Shown here piece by piece: positions 22,701 through 30,130 of a DNA stretch of 64,000 nt. Location of the stretch: contig NZ_CP116967.1 of the NCBI RefSeq assembly GCF_032050975.1, positions 2,477,001-2,541,000 on the forward strand, in the 5' to 3' direction. Made by a program: the position numbers and the translations under genes. The notes beneath the pieces were generated by a model. That model did no database searches. It saw only the letters and a program-made list of their open reading frames with translations, and was not told the origin of the DNA. The DNA comes from Candidatus Nitrospira allomarina. Its GTDB lineage: Bacteria > Nitrospirota > Nitrospiria > Nitrospirales > UBA8639. Numbering within the stretch: the stretch's first letter is position 1; each line of letters starts with the position of its first letter.

Positions 22701-22913
22701 GATTTCCCTCAGGTTGCCAAAAAACTCTTCAATCACATTGTAGAAAAAATCCACAGGATGACCACTCTCCGAGGCCATTTTAAGGACGAAATGGGCCAAT
22801 TTGGGCATCTACCCTATATAAACCCAGGGCCCAGAATTTGCTGAGTATATGTTTATTGTGAGCATTTCCGGTTTCCTAAGAAAGTGTGGCATGTTTCGGA
22901 AGAGGGTGCGGTA

Positions 22914-23336
22914 ATGTCCTCAGATACCACACCGGTAAAACATCGCGGCCAATCCTGTACCATTCTGGTCGTTGATGATGATGAAGCAATGCGGACACTC
23001 CTTGTGGACGCCCTTCAAGAAAAAGGGTGTCGAGTGATCGAGTCAGAGAATGGGACAGATGCCTTGAATGTCCTAAAGGCCGTGGTGCCGAATGTGATTG
23101 TGACGGACTTGAAAATGCCGGATGGCGGATTTCCCTATTTGCGGCGCCTCCAGGAAGGAGCTCCGGATTGTCCGATTGTCGTCATGACGGCGTATGGAGA
23201 CAGTCAGTCCAAGGCGAAAGCGTTAGATTGTGGAGTCAAAGGATATTTCGAAAAGCCTCTTCGTATTTCTGATTTGAAGGCATGGATTTGTCAAATGTGT
23301 TTGGTGAATCCCTGCGGGAACCTTCCGTTTTATTGA
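22914..23336 (+). CDS. Single-domain response regulator
   Basis: A 140-residue receiver domain without an output domain. Acidic pocket DDDE (VVDDDEAM), the phospho-acceptor Asp in VTDLKMPDGG, the conserved Thr in VMTAYGD and Lys in YFEKPL are all present. The ATG at 22914 is chosen because homology starts soon after it. It lies 40 bp before the sigma-54 activator gene. That activator has a PAS domain rather than its own receiver, so this protein may act on it or in a phosphorelay. No histidine kinase is adjacent. Confidence 0.88.
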   Translation: MSSDTTPVKHRGQSCTILVVDDDEAMRTLLVDALQEKGCRVIESENGTDALNVLKAVVPNVIVTDLKMPDGGFPYLRRLQEGAPDCPIVVMTAYGDSQSKAKALDCGVKGYFEKPLRISDLKAWICQMCLVNPCGNLPFY

Positions 23337-23376: not shown

Positions 23377-24795
23377 ATGGCCGGATCGTTCGTGCATCAG
23401 GATTCTGATTCCGACGTGTCTTGGAGTGCGCGGATTGAAGGATTAAAGTTTCTGGCGCAGCAGGTGGATGAGCCGGTTGTGATTTTCAATCCTCGGAAGG
23501 AATTGGTGTATGCCAATCCCTCAGCCAATAAAATAGCGAAAGATTGTCCATTAATCCTTTCATCATCCCTTTCTTCTTCCGATTCACTGCCTTCCAATCA
23601 GACACCTTGTGACCCTTGTCACGCAATGGAACTGTTTCGGTCTGACAGGCAAGTTCAGGATACATTTCCCTGTCCTTCCCATTCGGTTGTTACCACGCCA
23701 GGATGTCCGTTGCCACGTGCGGTGCCATTGAGAAGCGGGACCGGTATGACCCATGTTGCGATATTGATGGGGGCTCGGGGGAGTGAGAGTATTATGATGG
23801 TTCCACAGGACGAGGATTCATCTGACCCGCCTGCAATGTCTGGGGATTCCTTGACGGAGGCCCTCCCTCCCACGATCATCGGAGGCAGTGACCCGATTCA
23901 ACAATTGGTGGAAATGGTTCGATTGATCGCCGCGAGTGAGGCAACGGTGCTCATTCAAGGGGAAAGTGGAACCGGGAAAGAATTAGTGGCGAAGACCATT
24001 CATGCCTTGAGTCGCCGACGCCTCAGGCCTTTTATAGTGGTGGAATGCAGTGCATTGCCCGAAACCTTGCTGGAAAGCGAATTATTCGGTCATGTACGGG
24101 GATCCTTTACCGGAGCGGTCGCTGATCGCAAAGGCTTGTTTGAAGAAGCCGAAGGTGGCACAATTTTTTTGGATGAAATTACTGATACCACTCCTGCATT
24201 TCAAGCCCGCTTACTTCGCGTTTTGCAGGAAGGCGAAATCAAGCCCGTGGGGAGCAATGGATCCGTCAAAGTGAATGTGAGGGTCATCTCGGCCGGGAAT
24301 AAACCTCTGGACCATCTTGTGGCAACCAAGCTGTTTCGTGCAGATTTATATTATAGGCTCGCCGTCCTCCCGTTAACCGTCCCGCCATTGAGGGAGCGAA
24401 GAGAAGATATCCTACTGTTGGTGGAGTATTTTCTGGATCAATGCGCCAGAAAGCACGGGCGTGGTCCGATGCAGGTCAGCCCCGATGCCCAAACGGCTTT
24501 ATTACACCATTCGTGGCCTGGGAATGTCCGGGAATTAGAAAACTTGATTGAACGGGTGGTGGTCACATGCCCGCATTCCACACTTGAAGTGAAAGATTTT
24601 TTTGCCGATCATCCCTTGCAACCCGATAAACGCGATTTGAGTTCGATCGGGAAAATCGCTCGCCAGGAAGCGGAACGGTCAAGAATCCTCCAAGCCCTCA
24701 GGGATGTGAAGGGAGATAAGACCCGCGCTGCGCGGGCCTTGAATATCAGTCGATCCAGCCTCTACAACAAGCTGCGGGACTATCATATTTCCTAA
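23377..24795 (+). CDS. Sigma-54-dependent transcriptional activator (PAS-AAA+-Fis)
   Basis: A 472-residue NtrC-type enhancer-binding protein. A PAS-like sensor (about 20-135) contains a cysteine set at C78, C81, C99 and C110 (CDPCH ... FPCP ... TPGCP) that could bind a metal or Fe-S cluster. The AAA+ domain (about 168-395) has Walker A GESGTGKE (195-202), the sigma-54 contact loop as GSFTGA (242-247) instead of GAFTGA, and Walker B TIFLDE. The C-terminus is a Fis-type HTH (ARALNISRSSLYNKL). The oxidase promoter region directly downstream carries -24/-12 boxes and two palindromes, so this activator is likely its regulator. Confidence 0.93.
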   Translation: MAGSFVHQDSDSDVSWSARIEGLKFLAQQVDEPVVIFNPRKELVYANPSANKIAKDCPLILSSSLSSSDSLPSNQTPCDPCHAMELFRSDRQVQDTFPCPSHSVVTTPGCPLPRAVPLRSGTGMTHVAILMGARGSESIMMVPQDEDSSDPPAMSGDSLTEALPPTIIGGSDPIQQLVEMVRLIAASEATVLIQGESGTGKELVAKTIHALSRRRLRPFIVVECSALPETLLESELFGHVRGSFTGAVADRKGLFEEAEGGTIFLDEITDTTPAFQARLLRVLQEGEIKPVGSNGSVKVNVRVISAGNKPLDHLVATKLFRADLYYRLAVLPLTVPPLRERREDILLLVEYFLDQCARKHGRGPMQVSPDAQTALLHHSWPGNVRELENLIERVVVTCPHSTLEVKDFFADHPLQPDKRDLSSIGKIARQEAERSRILQALRDVKGDKTRAARALNISRSSLYNKLRDYHIS

Positions 24796-24842: not shown

Positions 24843-24858
24843 GTCCATTTTTTTGGAC
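24843..24858. promoter_or_regulatory. Upstream palindrome 1 (GTCCA-N6-TGGAC), putative enhancer
   Basis: GTCCA and TGGAC flank six T's. The same palindrome with a different 6-base centre occurs 64 bp downstream, about six helical turns. It lies 48 bp after the activator's stop codon and about 180 bp upstream of the -24/-12 promoter, the usual place for an enhancer-binding protein site. The T-rich centre is not needed for the match. Confidence 0.55.
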
Positions 24859-24906
24859 GCACAACTTCTTGAATTTTAGTTGAAATAACAAACCACGGAA
24901 AAGTTG

Positions 24907-24922
24907 GTCCAAGGTGTTGGAC
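24907..24922. promoter_or_regulatory. Upstream palindrome 2 (GTCCA-N6-TGGAC), putative enhancer
   Basis: GTCCAAGGTGTTGGAC repeats the arms and spacing of the palindrome at 24843, with an even longer dyad (GTCCAA/TTGGAC). It is about 115 bp upstream of the candidate sigma-54 promoter. Two same-face copies are typical for hexameric activators. Confidence 0.58.
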
Positions 24923-25020
24923 ATTCTGCCGCGTTGTGCATTTTTCCATTCATTCCTGATTGTCGGCTGAAATCCGCACCAGTACCGACTTCTGTGGTTT
25001 GTCGCATGGATGAGTGTTCA

Positions 25021-25036
25021 TTGGCATCGATGTTGC
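25021..25036 (+). promoter_or_regulatory. Candidate sigma-54 (-24/-12) promoter of the giant multicopper oxidase
   Basis: TTGGCAT-N5-TTGC with GG at 25023-25024 and GC at 25035-25036 matches the sigma-54 consensus with correct 10-base spacing. It implies a start near 25047 and a leader of about 200 bases before the oxidase ATG. The activator gene and two palindromes lie just upstream. The long leader has no recognised riboswitch. Confidence 0.62.
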
Positions 25037-25246
25037 GGAACAATTTGATGCCGACGCTGGTTTGGGTGTGATGGACCGGCCTCCGGAATGCCCGACCTCT
25101 CCAAGAGGATTCCCGGCGTCGGCACTTAACAATCAAGTATCTGGCCGGTCTGTTTTTCGAGAAACGTGAATTGTGGGAAACAAGTTGTCTGATTGAGAGC
25201 AAACCCAATCGATCTTTATTCACCTCATAGGTAAGGAGGCCGGAGC

Positions 25247-28200
25247 ATGTATCACGGCAAGAGTAAATTTTTAACTGCGTCTATATTTTTGGCGCTGATG
25301 GGGGGGGCGGCCTTCTGGGCTACTCCAACCTTTGTCAGTGCTGAAAATGCATCTCCTTCACACGCCCATCAGACGGGGATGCCGGCGCAATCTCCTGGTT
25401 GGGCCGAACAGCTCAAGGGCCAGACGATTGTGGAAGATGCCATGGAAGGGCGGGCGGAACGGGCGGCCCTGGTTGAGCAGCAGCATCAACGCATGATGGA
25501 GCAAATGCAGAAGGACATGGAGCATAAGGGTGCCGACACGGGTGCATTTGATTCCATGTCGATGATTCACCAATATGGAGGGGGGCCGGCGAATGGCCTT
25601 CTGGCAAGTACTCCCGGTGTGGAGCCGGTGTCCATGAAAGGTGGGTTATGTCCCAAGACCGCACCTGTTCGAAATTATGATGTGTCAGCCATTAATGTGG
25701 AAATTAGTCTGAATCAATGGCTGGATTATTATCCCGGGTACATGTATGCCTTGACCGGAAATATTGACAAGATCCGTGAGGAGGAAGCCAAAAATGCCGA
25801 GGCTCGTGAAAAGGAAGGTCATGTCGATCCGGGAGCTGTGAACAATGGCATTCAGGATCAGTGGATACAACCCTTGGTGATTCGCGGCAATCAAGGCGAT
25901 TGCGTGAAGGTTACTCTGCGTAACCAATTGGAGTTCGGCGAAGAAGTCAGTTTGCATATCAATGGGTCTGATATGGTGATGAGCCAGACCGGTCAACCGG
26001 CGCTCACCACCAATCCTGATTCGGTGGCGACAGAAGGCCAAGCCATTGAAATGGAATGGTACATCCATCCCGATACTCAAGAAGGTGGAAAGCAATTTCA
26101 TACCTTTAGCAATGACCGGGAGTTGACGGTCATGGGACTCTTCGGCGTCTTCGTCGTGGAACCACGTGGATCGAATTACTATGAGCCCTTGGGTACGGGG
26201 CCGGCCACGGAAGCCACGAGTGGCTGGCAGGTGATGATTGATAATGGGGACGGACCAGACTTTCGGGAATTTGTCCTGATTTATCATGAAGTGGGTGATG
26301 AAGCATTTCGTCCCGTGAATAAGCATGGAGACTTCCTGCCTCAGCGGGACCCGCTCACCGATGCCTATCGTCCGGGTGCCCGGGCTCTCAATTATCGGAG
26401 TGAACCGTTCGGAATTAACAATATGCACGTGCAACATGAATACTTTGGATTTGAAGATGAGTCGATGGCGTATAGTTCCTATACCTTTGGTGATGCCGCC
26501 CCGACTATTCCCAGGAGTTATTTAGGTGACCCGGCTAAATTCCGTATTGTGCATGGTGGATCGGAAGTCTTCCATTCGCATCATCCTCACGGCGGGTCGA
26601 TTCGGTGGCAACGAAGCCCACGTGCGACGCAGATGCCGGTCTGGAGTACGGGGCAAAACGGACCTGTGAAATTTCCGGTGATTCGGACGAAGTCGGACAG
26701 AGTCGATGTGGAAGTGATTGGGCCATCCGAAGCGTTAGATTTGGAGACCGAATGCGGCTCGGGGCTTTGCCAATGGTTGGCGGGAGATTTTCTCTTTCAC
26801 TGCCATGTGGCGCATCACTATGTGGCCGGTATGTGGGGTTACTGGCGTGTGTATAACAGCCTGCAAGAGCCAGGTGTGCAAAATGACGTGATGGCTCCTT
26901 TGCGAGAATTGCCGGACCGGTTAGGCCGCATTCACAAGCCCGTGACTTCCGATCAACTGGTGGGCAAGACCGTCAATTGGTTTGGCAAGCAATTCAAGAT
27001 TGTGGGTAAAGGCAAAAGTGATTGGAAAGCCGACCCCGCCGTCGTGAATATTAAAGATTGGGTAGAAATGCAGCTCAGCAATCAAGGCAAGCCCGGACAT
27101 AAAGATGATGAGGCCGGTCAAATGAAGGCCTATGATGCCACCGTCATGGATTGGGTCTGGGATGGGTCGAAGGCCATGAGCGAGAAAGAGCCGACCCTTG
27201 GGGAAAATCCCAAATATCGGCCGGAGTGGCAGGGATATAAAGCCGGGGAACGGCGGGCCATTTGGTTTGAACCGTCAACCGGGAAAGTCGCGTGGCCGTG
27301 GCTCACGCCACATTTCGGAAAACGGGCGCCGTTTTCCAATGATCACAATCCGGCCCCATGGTTGGAAATGATCCGATTGAATCCTGATGGAACACGGTCG
27401 GTCGAACCGGCCAAGGCGGGCGAAAATGGCTCTTGGAGTCTGTGTCCGGATCGAGCCGGATCACAAGATTACAAGGTGCATTTTATTAAGTTACCGATAG
27501 AATTGTCGGCTGCCGAAGGAAAAGAGCCGGCGATTGTCGACCCCAATGGGCTTCTCTATGTTGTGCATGAGGAAGAGGAAGAGGTGCGAGCCAACAACGA
27601 CAAAAAATTCCCGTTGGTGGTTCGGGCGAATGTGTATGATTGCATCGATTGGACGCTGACGAGTGAATGGTTGGATGACGATATCACGAACTTCCAGTCG
27701 TCCAAGATCAACACGCATTTCCATTTCTTCCAGTTCGATAATCAGGCATCTGATGGAGTCATTTCGGGATTTTCGTATGAACAATCCATGCGGCCGTTTA
27801 CCCAATTCGAGAAAAAGTCGGATAAAGGGTTGCCGGTGCCGATGAATGCGAAGGTGACGAAGGCCGCCAAGAAAGGTGACAAAACCTTGGAGGTTTCGAA
27901 TGCCAAGCAATATCATGTGGGCATTCCGATTCTGATTGGTGCGGATAATGTCAAAGGCCAGGAGGTGCGACGGATCGTCAAAATTAATGGCAATACGTTG
28001 ACATTTGCCCAGCCCTTGAAGAATGCGCATCCGGTCAAGGACATTGTCACCGTGGAATATGTCCGGCAACGGTTCTGGGTGGATGCCGATGTGGGCAGTG
28101 TGTTCTGGCATGACCATGCCTTTGGTGGCACAACCTGGCCGCACGGGGCAGTTGGGACCATGATTGCCGAACCCTTCGGTTCCACGTGGCACGATCCGAA

Positions 28201-30130
28201 GACCGGCAAGCGGATTCGCTCGGGTCCGGTAGCCGATATTCATGCGGTGGAACGTGTGGGACATGATGTGGCAGGCAGCTTCCGTGAATTGATGGTGCAC
28301 ATCATGGATACGGTGCCGCACACGGTAAATATCGTGACGGCGGGCAATCCTCCAGGGCAACCGGTGGATGTGGCCTTAGAAGCGGGTCGGACGGTGTCGT
28401 TTATCATGCCGCCGAACGACCGGATTAAAATGACGCCCATGCCGTTCCTGAATGGCGGCACACATACGACGGGAGGAGCGTTCAATTTCCGGGCTGAGCC
28501 ATTCGCACAACGATTGGTCAATAACCCGGATCCCTCCAAGCTCTTCAGCAGTGCGGTGCATGGCGATCCCAGCACGGCCATGATTCGGGCCTACTTGGGT
28601 GATGCCATTGTGTTTAGATTAATTGACGTAACCATGAATGAAAGTAATGTGTTTACGTTGTCCGGCCATACCTTCTGGTCAGAACGGTATGCGCAAGAGG
28701 CGAATCGCAAACATTCGCTGCATATCGGAATTGCCGAACGGTATGACCTGGTCATTCCGGAAGCGGGTGGGCCGCGCCATCAAGCCGGCGATTACATGTT
28801 CTTTAATGGCCGGAGTTCGAAGTTTTCGGAAGGCTCCTGGGGGCTGATTCGGGTCTTAGATAAGCCGGTGGGTGATCTGCAGCCCTTACCGAATAAGGCC
28901 TATGGCAAAGAGGGCATGCCGGAGCGATTGCCGGTTTGTCCGAAAGGGGCTCCGGTGAAGAGCTTCAGTGTCGTGGCCTTGGACCATCCGGGGATGAGCT
29001 TTAATAACAATGCTCCGGAAACGATTGAAGTGGACTTTGAGCGCAAGATTGAATTGCGCAATCCTGAAGCCAAAATCTATGTCCTCGAAGATGAGGTGCA
29101 AAAGGTCGGTAGTGATGTGCAACCCATGCCGTTAACGTTACGGGCCAACGTGGGTGACTGTCTCCAAGTCAAATTGACGAATAAGCTCAAAGAAGGGCGA
29201 GCGTCATTCTCGGCCTTCGGCCTGGCCTTCGATCCCAAAGATTCCCAAGGCCTCAATTTGGGGAACAACCCCGGGGACCAAACCGTGGCGCCCGGTGAAT
29301 CCCGGATGTACACCTATTATGCGGATCCCTTCAATGGCGAGACGCAAACCTTGGTGTGGGATTGGGGGAATGTGTCGATGAATCCCCGCAACGGCCTGTT
29401 TGGCGGAATCATTATCGGTCCCAAGGGATCACAGTACCGTGATCCAAAAACCGGGGAAGATATTTCCCTGAAAAACAGTTGGAATGCCGATGTGATTGTG
29501 GATCGGACTATTCAGGGCAATGAGAGCCGGGTGAGCTACCGGGATGTCGCCTTGTATTTCCAGGACGAGGATAACATCATCGGAACCAGCTTCATGCCCT
29601 ATGTTCAAAATGTGGCAGGCCTGACCGGCGTCAACTATCGCGCCGAACCCTATCTTCATCGCGAAGAAGCCGGTTGTTCATTGGGCCGGATGTTCCAACC
29701 GTGCCAAGTGGACAAGCCGCAGGATCCTGCGACACCGGTGATTGAAGCCCATGCCGGAGACAAAGTACGGATTCACGTCTTTGGCGCCAGCAGTGAGCAG
29801 AATGGAATGTTCACCGTGGAAAAGCATGAATGGCCGATTGAACCCTTCCTGCCCGGTGCGGATATGATTAGCACCGTGGAGTTCTCGGGTTCGGAAGGTT
29901 TGGATGTTTTCCTGCCCTCGGCAGGAGGAAGATGGTCTCTGACTGGAGATTATGTGTGGAGCAATGGCCGATTACCCTATTCCCAATCGGGGCAGTGGGG
30001 TTATCTCCGGGTGTTGCCGGACACGGATCAACGGATTCAGCCATTGGATGGTTCGGCCATGTCTTCCAAACAAGCGGCTCTTGAGGAGTCCAGTGCCGAG
30101 CCGCGAATTATTCCTACCATCGCGAAGTAA
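25247..30130 (+). CDS. Giant periplasmic multicopper oxidase (MnxG-like architecture)
   Basis: A 1627-residue exported protein (signal peptide about 1-32, cut after VSA) built from repeated cupredoxin-like domains. Copper-ligand clusters include H237 (LHING), H443-S-H-H-P-H448, H518-C-H-V-A-H-H524-Y-V-A-G-M529 (a full type-1/trinuclear motif, Met axial), H824-F-H826, H955-D-H957 with H966, and H1141. A Met/Gln-rich helix (residues 60-90) and a small beta insertion (about 865-935) are extra. Typical oxidases have about 500 residues; this size and multi-domain layout recalls the Mn(II) oxidase MnxG. The substrate (Mn, Fe, Cu or an organic) is not shown. A strong site, AAGGAGG, precedes the ATG and a strong terminator follows. 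Confidence 0.88.
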   Translation: MYHGKSKFLTASIFLALMGGAAFWATPTFVSAENASPSHAHQTGMPAQSPGWAEQLKGQTIVEDAMEGRAERAALVEQQHQRMMEQMQKDMEHKGADTGAFDSMSMIHQYGGGPANGLLASTPGVEPVSMKGGLCPKTAPVRNYDVSAINVEISLNQWLDYYPGYMYALTGNIDKIREEEAKNAEAREKEGHVDPGAVNNGIQDQWIQPLVIRGNQGDCVKVTLRNQLEFGEEVSLHINGSDMVMSQTGQPALTTNPDSVATEGQAIEMEWYIHPDTQEGGKQFHTFSNDRELTVMGLFGVFVVEPRGSNYYEPLGTGPATEATSGWQVMIDNGDGPDFREFVLIYHEVGDEAFRPVNKHGDFLPQRDPLTDAYRPGARALNYRSEPFGINNMHVQHEYFGFEDESMAYSSYTFGDAAPTIPRSYLGDPAKFRIVHGGSEVFHSHHPHGGSIRWQRSPRATQMPVWSTGQNGPVKFPVIRTKSDRVDVEVIGPSEALDLETECGSGLCQWLAGDFLFHCHVAHHYVAGMWGYWRVYNSLQEPGVQNDVMAPLRELPDRLGRIHKPVTSDQLVGKTVNWFGKQFKIVGKGKSDWKADPAVVNIKDWVEMQLSNQGKPGHKDDEAGQMKAYDATVMDWVWDGSKAMSEKEPTLGENPKYRPEWQGYKAGERRAIWFEPSTGKVAWPWLTPHFGKRAPFSNDHNPAPWLEMIRLNPDGTRSVEPAKAGENGSWSLCPDRAGSQDYKVHFIKLPIELSAAEGKEPAIVDPNGLLYVVHEEEEEVRANNDKKFPLVVRANVYDCIDWTLTSEWLDDDITNFQSSKINTHFHFFQFDNQASDGVISGFSYEQSMRPFTQFEKKSDKGLPVPMNAKVTKAAKKGDKTLEVSNAKQYHVGIPILIGADNVKGQEVRRIVKINGNTLTFAQPLKNAHPVKDIVTVEYVRQRFWVDADVGSVFWHDHAFGGTTWPHGAVGTMIAEPFGSTWHDPKTGKRIRSGPVADIHAVERVGHDVAGSFRELMVHIMDTVPHTVNIVTAGNPPGQPVDVALEAGRTVSFIMPPNDRIKMTPMPFLNGGTHTTGGAFNFRAEPFAQRLVNNPDPSKLFSSAVHGDPSTAMIRAYLGDAIVFRLIDVTMNESNVFTLSGHTFWSERYAQEANRKHSLHIGIAERYDLVIPEAGGPRHQAGDYMFFNGRSSKFSEGSWGLIRVLDKPVGDLQPLPNKAYGKEGMPERLPVCPKGAPVKSFSVVALDHPGMSFNNNAPETIEVDFERKIELRNPEAKIYVLEDEVQKVGSDVQPMPLTLRANVGDCLQVKLTNKLKEGRASFSAFGLAFDPKDSQGLNLGNNPGDQTVAPGESRMYTYYADPFNGETQTLVWDWGNVSMNPRNGLFGGIIIGPKGSQYRDPKTGEDISLKNSWNADVIVDRTIQGNESRVSYRDVALYFQDEDNIIGTSFMPYVQNVAGLTGVNYRAEPYLHREEAGCSLGRMFQPCQVDKPQDPATPVIEAHAGDKVRIHVFGASSEQNGMFTVEKHEWPIEPFLPGADMISTVEFSGSEGLDVFLPSAGGRWSLTGDYVWSNGRLPYSQSGQWGYLRVLPDTDQRIQPLDGSAMSSKQAALEESSAEPRIIPTIAK

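Follow-up and report, generated by a model that had tools for sequence, protein, structure and literature searches.

A sigma-54 promoter module and a conserved leader RNA upstream of giant MnxG-like multicopper oxidase genes suggest two-layer control in Nitrospira and relatives

The window analysed here is a stretch of 64,000 nucleotides from Candidatus Nitrospira allomarina (contig NZ_CP116967.1, positions 2,477,001 to 2,541,000 of the forward strand). On its plus strand, a gene for a receiver-only response regulator (22884..23336; Pfam Response_reg, 1.8e-24) precedes a gene for a sigma-54 activator (23377..24795), which in turn is followed by a gene for a giant multicopper oxidase of 1627 amino acids (25247..30130; Pfam Cu-oxidase_3, 7.4e-12). 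In Candidatus Nitrospira defluvii, the activator gene is likewise preceded by a receiver gene. Pfam matches and an ortholog alignment showed that the activator has the domain composition of an NtrC-type protein, with an AAA+ sigma-54 interaction domain (PF00158, 2.1e-65) and a Fis-type helix-turn-helix (PF02954, 4.6e-11). For the N-terminal domain, the PAS-like character was judged by eye only, as the Pfam search returned no match there. This activator contains cysteines at positions 57, 78, 81 and 110; the ortholog alignment shows clear conservation of the CxxC pair, and most of the orthologs also retain the outer two cysteines. The oxidase matched the MnxG manganese oxidase model NF041487 with 124.6 bits (1.9e-36), well below the curated cut-off of 3100 bits; it is therefore a distant relative of MnxG outside the curated family, and manganese oxidation is not implied. 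Elsewhere in the source genome, a third giant oxidase paralog (G000:C1:330308-335030) matches in two pieces that lie in different open frames, and is perhaps a frameshifted or broken gene. A minus-strand open reading frame at 24876-25223 was rejected as a gene, since it had no convincing Pfam match and overlaps the covarying RNA described below.

An earlier note on this DNA had placed two identical-arm palindromes, centred 64 bp apart, and a -24/-12 element with exact GG-N10-GC spacing in the gap between activator and oxidase. Both observations were confirmed, the gap extending from the activator stop at 24795 to the oxidase start at 25247. The palindromes, GTCCA-N6-TGGAC, are located at 24843..24858 (UAS1) and 24907..24922 (UAS2), neither being assigned a strand. 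Exactly two copies of this pattern are present in the window against 0.08 expected, and none of 100 shuffled sequences reached two. The putative sigma-54 promoter TTGGCATCGATGTTGCG (TTGGCAT-N5-TTGCG; 25021..25037, plus strand) was assigned by motif match and by its position in relatives, its GG and GC doublets lying 10 bp apart in a TTGGCAY-N5-TTGC context that is conserved in orthologs. When one mismatch was allowed, the -24/-12 motif gave six matches in the window against 5.2 expected. Such a match is thus not improbable by itself and gains its significance through conservation; the strict form GGCAY-N5-TTGC occurs only once in the window, as the promoter element. Based on this element, transcription is predicted to start at about 25047-25049. 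Between enhancer and promoter lies an IHF-like site, CAACTTCTTGAAT (24862..24874, no strand assigned), with one mismatch to YAANNNNTTGATW (consensus used, WATCAANNNNTTR), at which binding of IHF is predicted only.

To follow these elements in other genomes, we used about 100 relatives from the order Nitrospirales, among them Candidatus Nitrospira defluvii (G054) and NPIRA02/03. After an alignment of the orthologous upstream regions, 70 copies of the leader RNA, which begins at about the predicted start site, were compared; N. moscoviensis carries the element too. The earlier note had proposed a comparison of the gap in related genomes, and indeed the palindromes and the promoter were found to be conserved across Nitrospirales at a near-fixed spacing that spans at least two families. 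In 63 of the 70 sequences, 12-14 nt separate the end of the -24/-12 element from the leader. The outer palindrome, written as GTCYA-N6-TRGAC, accompanies 54 of the 70 leaders, mostly 203-212 bp and in a few cases up to 225 bp before the leader. An IHF-like match mostly starts 3-5 bp after this palindrome, with at most one mismatch in 30 of the 54 sequences versus 3% in shuffles. The second palindrome was recovered with at most two mismatches in 44 of the 54 (2.6% in shuffles) at a conserved position 64-68 bp away. This corrects the earlier note, as the second palindrome is conserved in place and usually imperfect in relatives (TGTCYA-N6-TRGA). The composite of palindrome and -24/-12 element at the given spacing was detected in 57 of 98 genomes, while the reversed control pattern produced no hits in any of the 98, which rules out a chance origin. 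Seven leaders lack the sigma-54 promoter, and the outer palindrome is missing in all seven, showing that the transcription and RNA layers are separable. Loss of RpoN was rejected as the cause of missing modules, since RpoN was found in all 14 genomes tested; in the source genome rpoN is full-length. Together, these sequence comparisons show that giant MnxG-like oxidase genes are preceded by a module of fixed spacing, in which the outer palindrome is followed by an IHF-like site, a second, imperfect palindrome and a predicted sigma-54 promoter.

Orthologs of the activator were found in 39 of 60 genomes, all of which also carry the leader RNA; both are missing from 20 genomes, and the sole exception, with a leader only, is the fragmented genome G041. 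Orthologs were counted when alignments ran through the N-terminal domain or were close fragments, a few of the 39 being partial hits that were counted by hand. The co-occurrence is strong (Fisher p 5e-15 on 60 genomes, a value that ignores shared ancestry), and the genomes compared include several genera of the family with apparent losses. In three genomes (G044, G047 and G050) the activator gene lies away from the oxidase, and the palindrome and -24/-12 element are found directly downstream of the activator. Architecture, spacing, the full-length rpoN and the co-occurrence of activator and leader thus support the proposal of the earlier note that the adjacent activator controls the oxidase through the palindromes, to which we infer that it binds. 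The further idea that the motif defines a regulon held in part. In the whole-genome scan the bare palindrome occurred 10 times versus two for the reversed control and is not specific, whereas the composite occurred once in the source genome. A broad palindrome regulon was rejected on this basis; the regulon that emerges has very few members. A possible second member was seen in G087 (L193:7685-7878, minus strand; G087:C10:460123), where the palindrome and -24/-12 module precede a gene for a 213-residue lipoprotein-like product near the oxidase. An exact GTCCA-N6-TGGAC in the source genome (L006:1501-1516; G000:C1:2270663) overlaps the start of a gene judged ArsR-like by eye, and is probably an unrelated operator. 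Near the N. defluvii activator, a copy of GGAGGCCGGTCC at the end of a receiver gene was judged to be due to chance.

The earlier note had missed both the leader RNA and its complementarity to the Shine-Dalgarno sequence. The leader, identified by folding and covariation, is a 76-nt element (25049..25124, plus strand) in which a helix, P1, closes a three-way junction; for 25045-25145 the z-score of the fold was -3.55. Across the 70 sequences, 94.7% of the cells at paired positions hold standard pairs versus 78.5% in shuffled alignments, 297 cells are doubly changed versus 88 in the shuffles, and 21 of 25 pairs show double changes. Sliding of the partner strand reduced pairing to at most 54%. 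All 11 pairs of P1 covary in this alignment, which was fitted to the model and therefore favours the structure; in the first, unfitted alignment, 11 pairs already showed double changes. P1 measures 11-13 bp, varies freely in sequence and begins at about the predicted +1. The two main families share few invariant positions besides a hairpin, GGA-CCGGCC-UCC (25073..25084, plus strand), and the junction linkers vary; across the family, the leader is more conserved than the promoter. An alternative hairpin in the core, CCGG-CCU-CCGG, was discarded because the second CCGG is not conserved, and P1 was dismissed as a transcription terminator because the U-run after it is inconsistent, being present in some relatives.

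In a scan of the phylum, the leader was detected in 114 of 396 genomes, and all listed genomes with a match belong to Nitrospirales. Matches to the exact core in Streptomyces and others remained at noise level, with at most 22.7 bits. Wherever the positions of oxidase genes were known, the leaders sit just upstream of giant oxidase genes, with a single exception, L195. In this case (L195:4111-4187, minus strand, family f2), a leader variant and a full promoter module precede a gene for a predicted exported, membrane-protein-like product of 219 residues that is not an oxidase. With its covarying helices and its retention upstream of one gene type, the element has the properties of a structured cis-regulatory leader. 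No Rfam family matched the leader, and full-text searches of the open-licence literature yielded no report of a leader RNA or riboswitch associated with Nitrospira oxidases. The leader is thus apparently new and a candidate for a new Rfam family.

The hairpin segment CCGGCCUCC is the exact complement of the extended Shine-Dalgarno sequence of the oxidase gene, GGAGGCCGG (25235..25243, plus strand), so that the hairpin can be regarded as a putative anti-Shine-Dalgarno element. A match of at least 7 nt between loop and Shine-Dalgarno sequence was present for 57 of 68 leader-bearing genes versus one of 83 others. Among 86 background genes with a Shine-Dalgarno sequence, four reached 7 nt, three of which are leader-bearing oxidase genes. 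The duplex has a predicted energy of -22.7 kcal/mol versus a mean of -12.2, and the loop is free in the nested fold. Other places in the source genome where GGAGGCCGG-N-ATG occurs mostly precede very short frames. In most genomes the pairing is not demonstrable by covariation because both partners hardly vary. In addition, type-B oxidases without a leader share the GGAGGCCGG start site, and hence the leader alone does not explain why this sequence is retained. Five leaders (L128, L129, L133, L135 and L139) keep the structure while the Shine-Dalgarno sequence of the gene matches the loop over 5 nt only. Three of these (L128:664-740, L129:690-766 and L133:649-725) belong to another oxidase subtype that has the loop CUGGCC and lacks a sigma-54 promoter in the customary position, the match extending no further than GGAGG.

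Probably, these elements form a two-layer module in which the giant MnxG-like oxidase is subject to sigma-54-dependent activation and to translational control by the leader RNA, a reading to which we assign a probability of roughly two in three. The neighbouring activator, with its PAS-like, AAA+ and Fis-type domains, would bind UAS1 and, more weakly, UAS2, and IHF would bend the DNA between the two sites and thereby help the activator to reach the sigma-54 RNA polymerase at the -24/-12 element. Once transcription had begun at about 25047-25049, the 5′-terminal 76 nt of the transcript would fold into the P1-closed three-way junction and present the loop CCGGCC. This loop and its 3′ strand, CCGGCCUCC, could then pair with the Shine-Dalgarno sequence of the same message, GGAGGCCGG, which lies some 150 nt further downstream, and keep translation low until a trigger, which might be a ligand, a metal, a protein, an RNA or temperature, freed the Shine-Dalgarno sequence.

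With respect to the transcription layer, the palindromes might be bound by a sigma-54 activator other than the neighbour. The source genome does contain about 25 matches to the activator at E 1e-60, mostly via the AAA+ domain; across genomes, however, the leader tracks only the full-length ortholog, and the module lies directly downstream of the adjacent activator even where the oxidase is elsewhere, which makes such a substitute highly improbable. For the RNA layer, the leader could mainly stabilise the mRNA, in the manner of the ompA leader, if a long 5′-terminal stem at +1 blocked decay that depends on the 5′ end and the Shine-Dalgarno match were secondary. A P1 helix that starts close to the predicted +1, measures 11-13 bp and is free to vary in sequence would fit this role. 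Stabilisation would, however, need neither an invariant 12-nt hairpin loop nor a match to the Shine-Dalgarno sequence, and we regard it as unlikely. A tentative possibility is a riboswitch function, in which the leader would bind a ligand, for instance a metal, and use the pairing of loop and Shine-Dalgarno sequence as its expression platform, a special case of the translation layer. The conserved three-way junction, its conserved internal core and its position before one type of metalloenzyme gene point in this direction; the scarcity of invariant positions outside the hairpin between the two main families, together with the variable junction linkers, leaves no clear binding pocket.

A further alternative, compatible with control in cis, is that the leader acts in trans. 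The source genome encodes a type-B oxidase paralog (C1:39490-44364) that has a sigma-70-like TTGACA upstream and no detected leader. Its start region, GGAGGCCGGTCCATG (G000:C1:44362-44376; L043, L206), is perfectly antisense to the invariant hairpin over 12 nt, with a predicted duplex energy of -30.4 kcal/mol, while the other two perfect 12-mers in this genome lie inside open frames. The corresponding 15-mer, with R at one place, was found in 52 of 98 genomes, the control giving no hits, and most occurrences coincide with oxidase starts. A small RNA carrying the hairpin might thus pair with the type-B start and shut off the paralog when the sigma-54-dependent oxidase is made, a swap of isozymes that resembles micF/ompF. 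Matching changes in G049, where the leader has CUGGCC (L195) and the start site GGCCAG, and the U-run after P1 in some relatives are in agreement with this idea. On the other hand, four genomes (G021, G027, G029 and G036) keep the start-site sequence though no leader was detected in them, some leader-bearing genomes have no type-B-like match, G092 is altered on one side only, and a consistent terminator after P1 was not found, so that there is no obvious small RNA. We therefore consider action in trans possible, yet improbable on balance. The broadest version, in which an undescribed, order-wide regulatory RNA, driven by sigma-54, would combine control in cis with antisense shut-off of a constitutive paralog start and so swap giant copper oxidases in Nitrospira and relatives, is a speculative and rather doubtful proposition.

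Individual parts of the two-layer module resemble known systems. NtrC-type activators bind paired palindromic enhancers 100-200 bp upstream of sigma-54 promoters. The present locus similarly has two dyads upstream of a -24/-12 element, an activator with AAA+ and Fis-type domains and an IHF-like site, but its outer site is strong and lies about 190 bp upstream of the -12 element, its inner site is weaker and its regulon is very small. As in translational riboswitches and other anti-Shine-Dalgarno leaders, a structured 5′ leader with covarying helices contains a segment complementary to the Shine-Dalgarno sequence; unlike in this class generally, the segment sits within a hairpin loop of a conserved fold without an Rfam match. 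The Qrr small RNAs of Vibrio, made from sigma-54 promoters with LuxO, are complementary to ribosome-binding sites. The sigma-54 promoter and the enhancer-binding protein are shared with Qrr, whereas the RNA considered here is the start of the oxidase message. In Pseudomonas putida GB-1, one report describes mnxG and mcoA with predicted IHF and sigma-54 sites (PMC11930936), and another ties the sigma-54-type regulator MnxR and rpoN to manganese oxidation in such pseudomonads, rpoN being needed (PMC11409713). P. putida GB-1 and relatives thus share with our locus large multicopper oxidase genes, predicted IHF and sigma-54 sites and a sigma-54-type activator. The Pseudomonas activator is a two-component response regulator, whereas the one encoded here is a PAS-like, cysteine-bearing protein without a receiver domain and with its own pair of palindromes; a leader RNA is not mentioned in the available parts of either report (PMC11930936, PMC11409713). 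Sigma-54 control of MnxG-type oxidases consequently has a precedent in Pseudomonas, while for the leader RNA none was found in the open-licence literature. The transcription layer is a new form of a known scheme, and the greater interest lies in the leader RNA. An earlier paper mentions a related oxidase from N. defluvii and Nitrospina gracilis, for which the suggested roles in manganese oxidation and radical defence are guesses only (PMC3578206).

A separate RNA candidate was encountered in several Nitrospira-like genomes (g12), where a palindrome near the activator and a -24/-12 element precede a conserved stretch of about 150 nt (L191:1929-2078, plus strand, and L190, L192, L196, L197, L200 and L201). 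A strong terminator hairpin, complete with U-run, closes this element, and 12 of its 49 pairs show double changes among seven sequences. Its representative L190 had no Rfam match of substance. We regard the element as a candidate small RNA under sigma-54 control.

Nitrospira are major nitrite oxidisers, with complete nitrifiers among them, and giant multicopper oxidases are widespread in this genus. Since the leader RNA is present in genomes that are already public, existing RNA-seq data could be used to test the RNA. The activator, the enhancer motif and the leader RNA make up a testable control circuit, the trigger of which would point to the physiological role of the oxidases.
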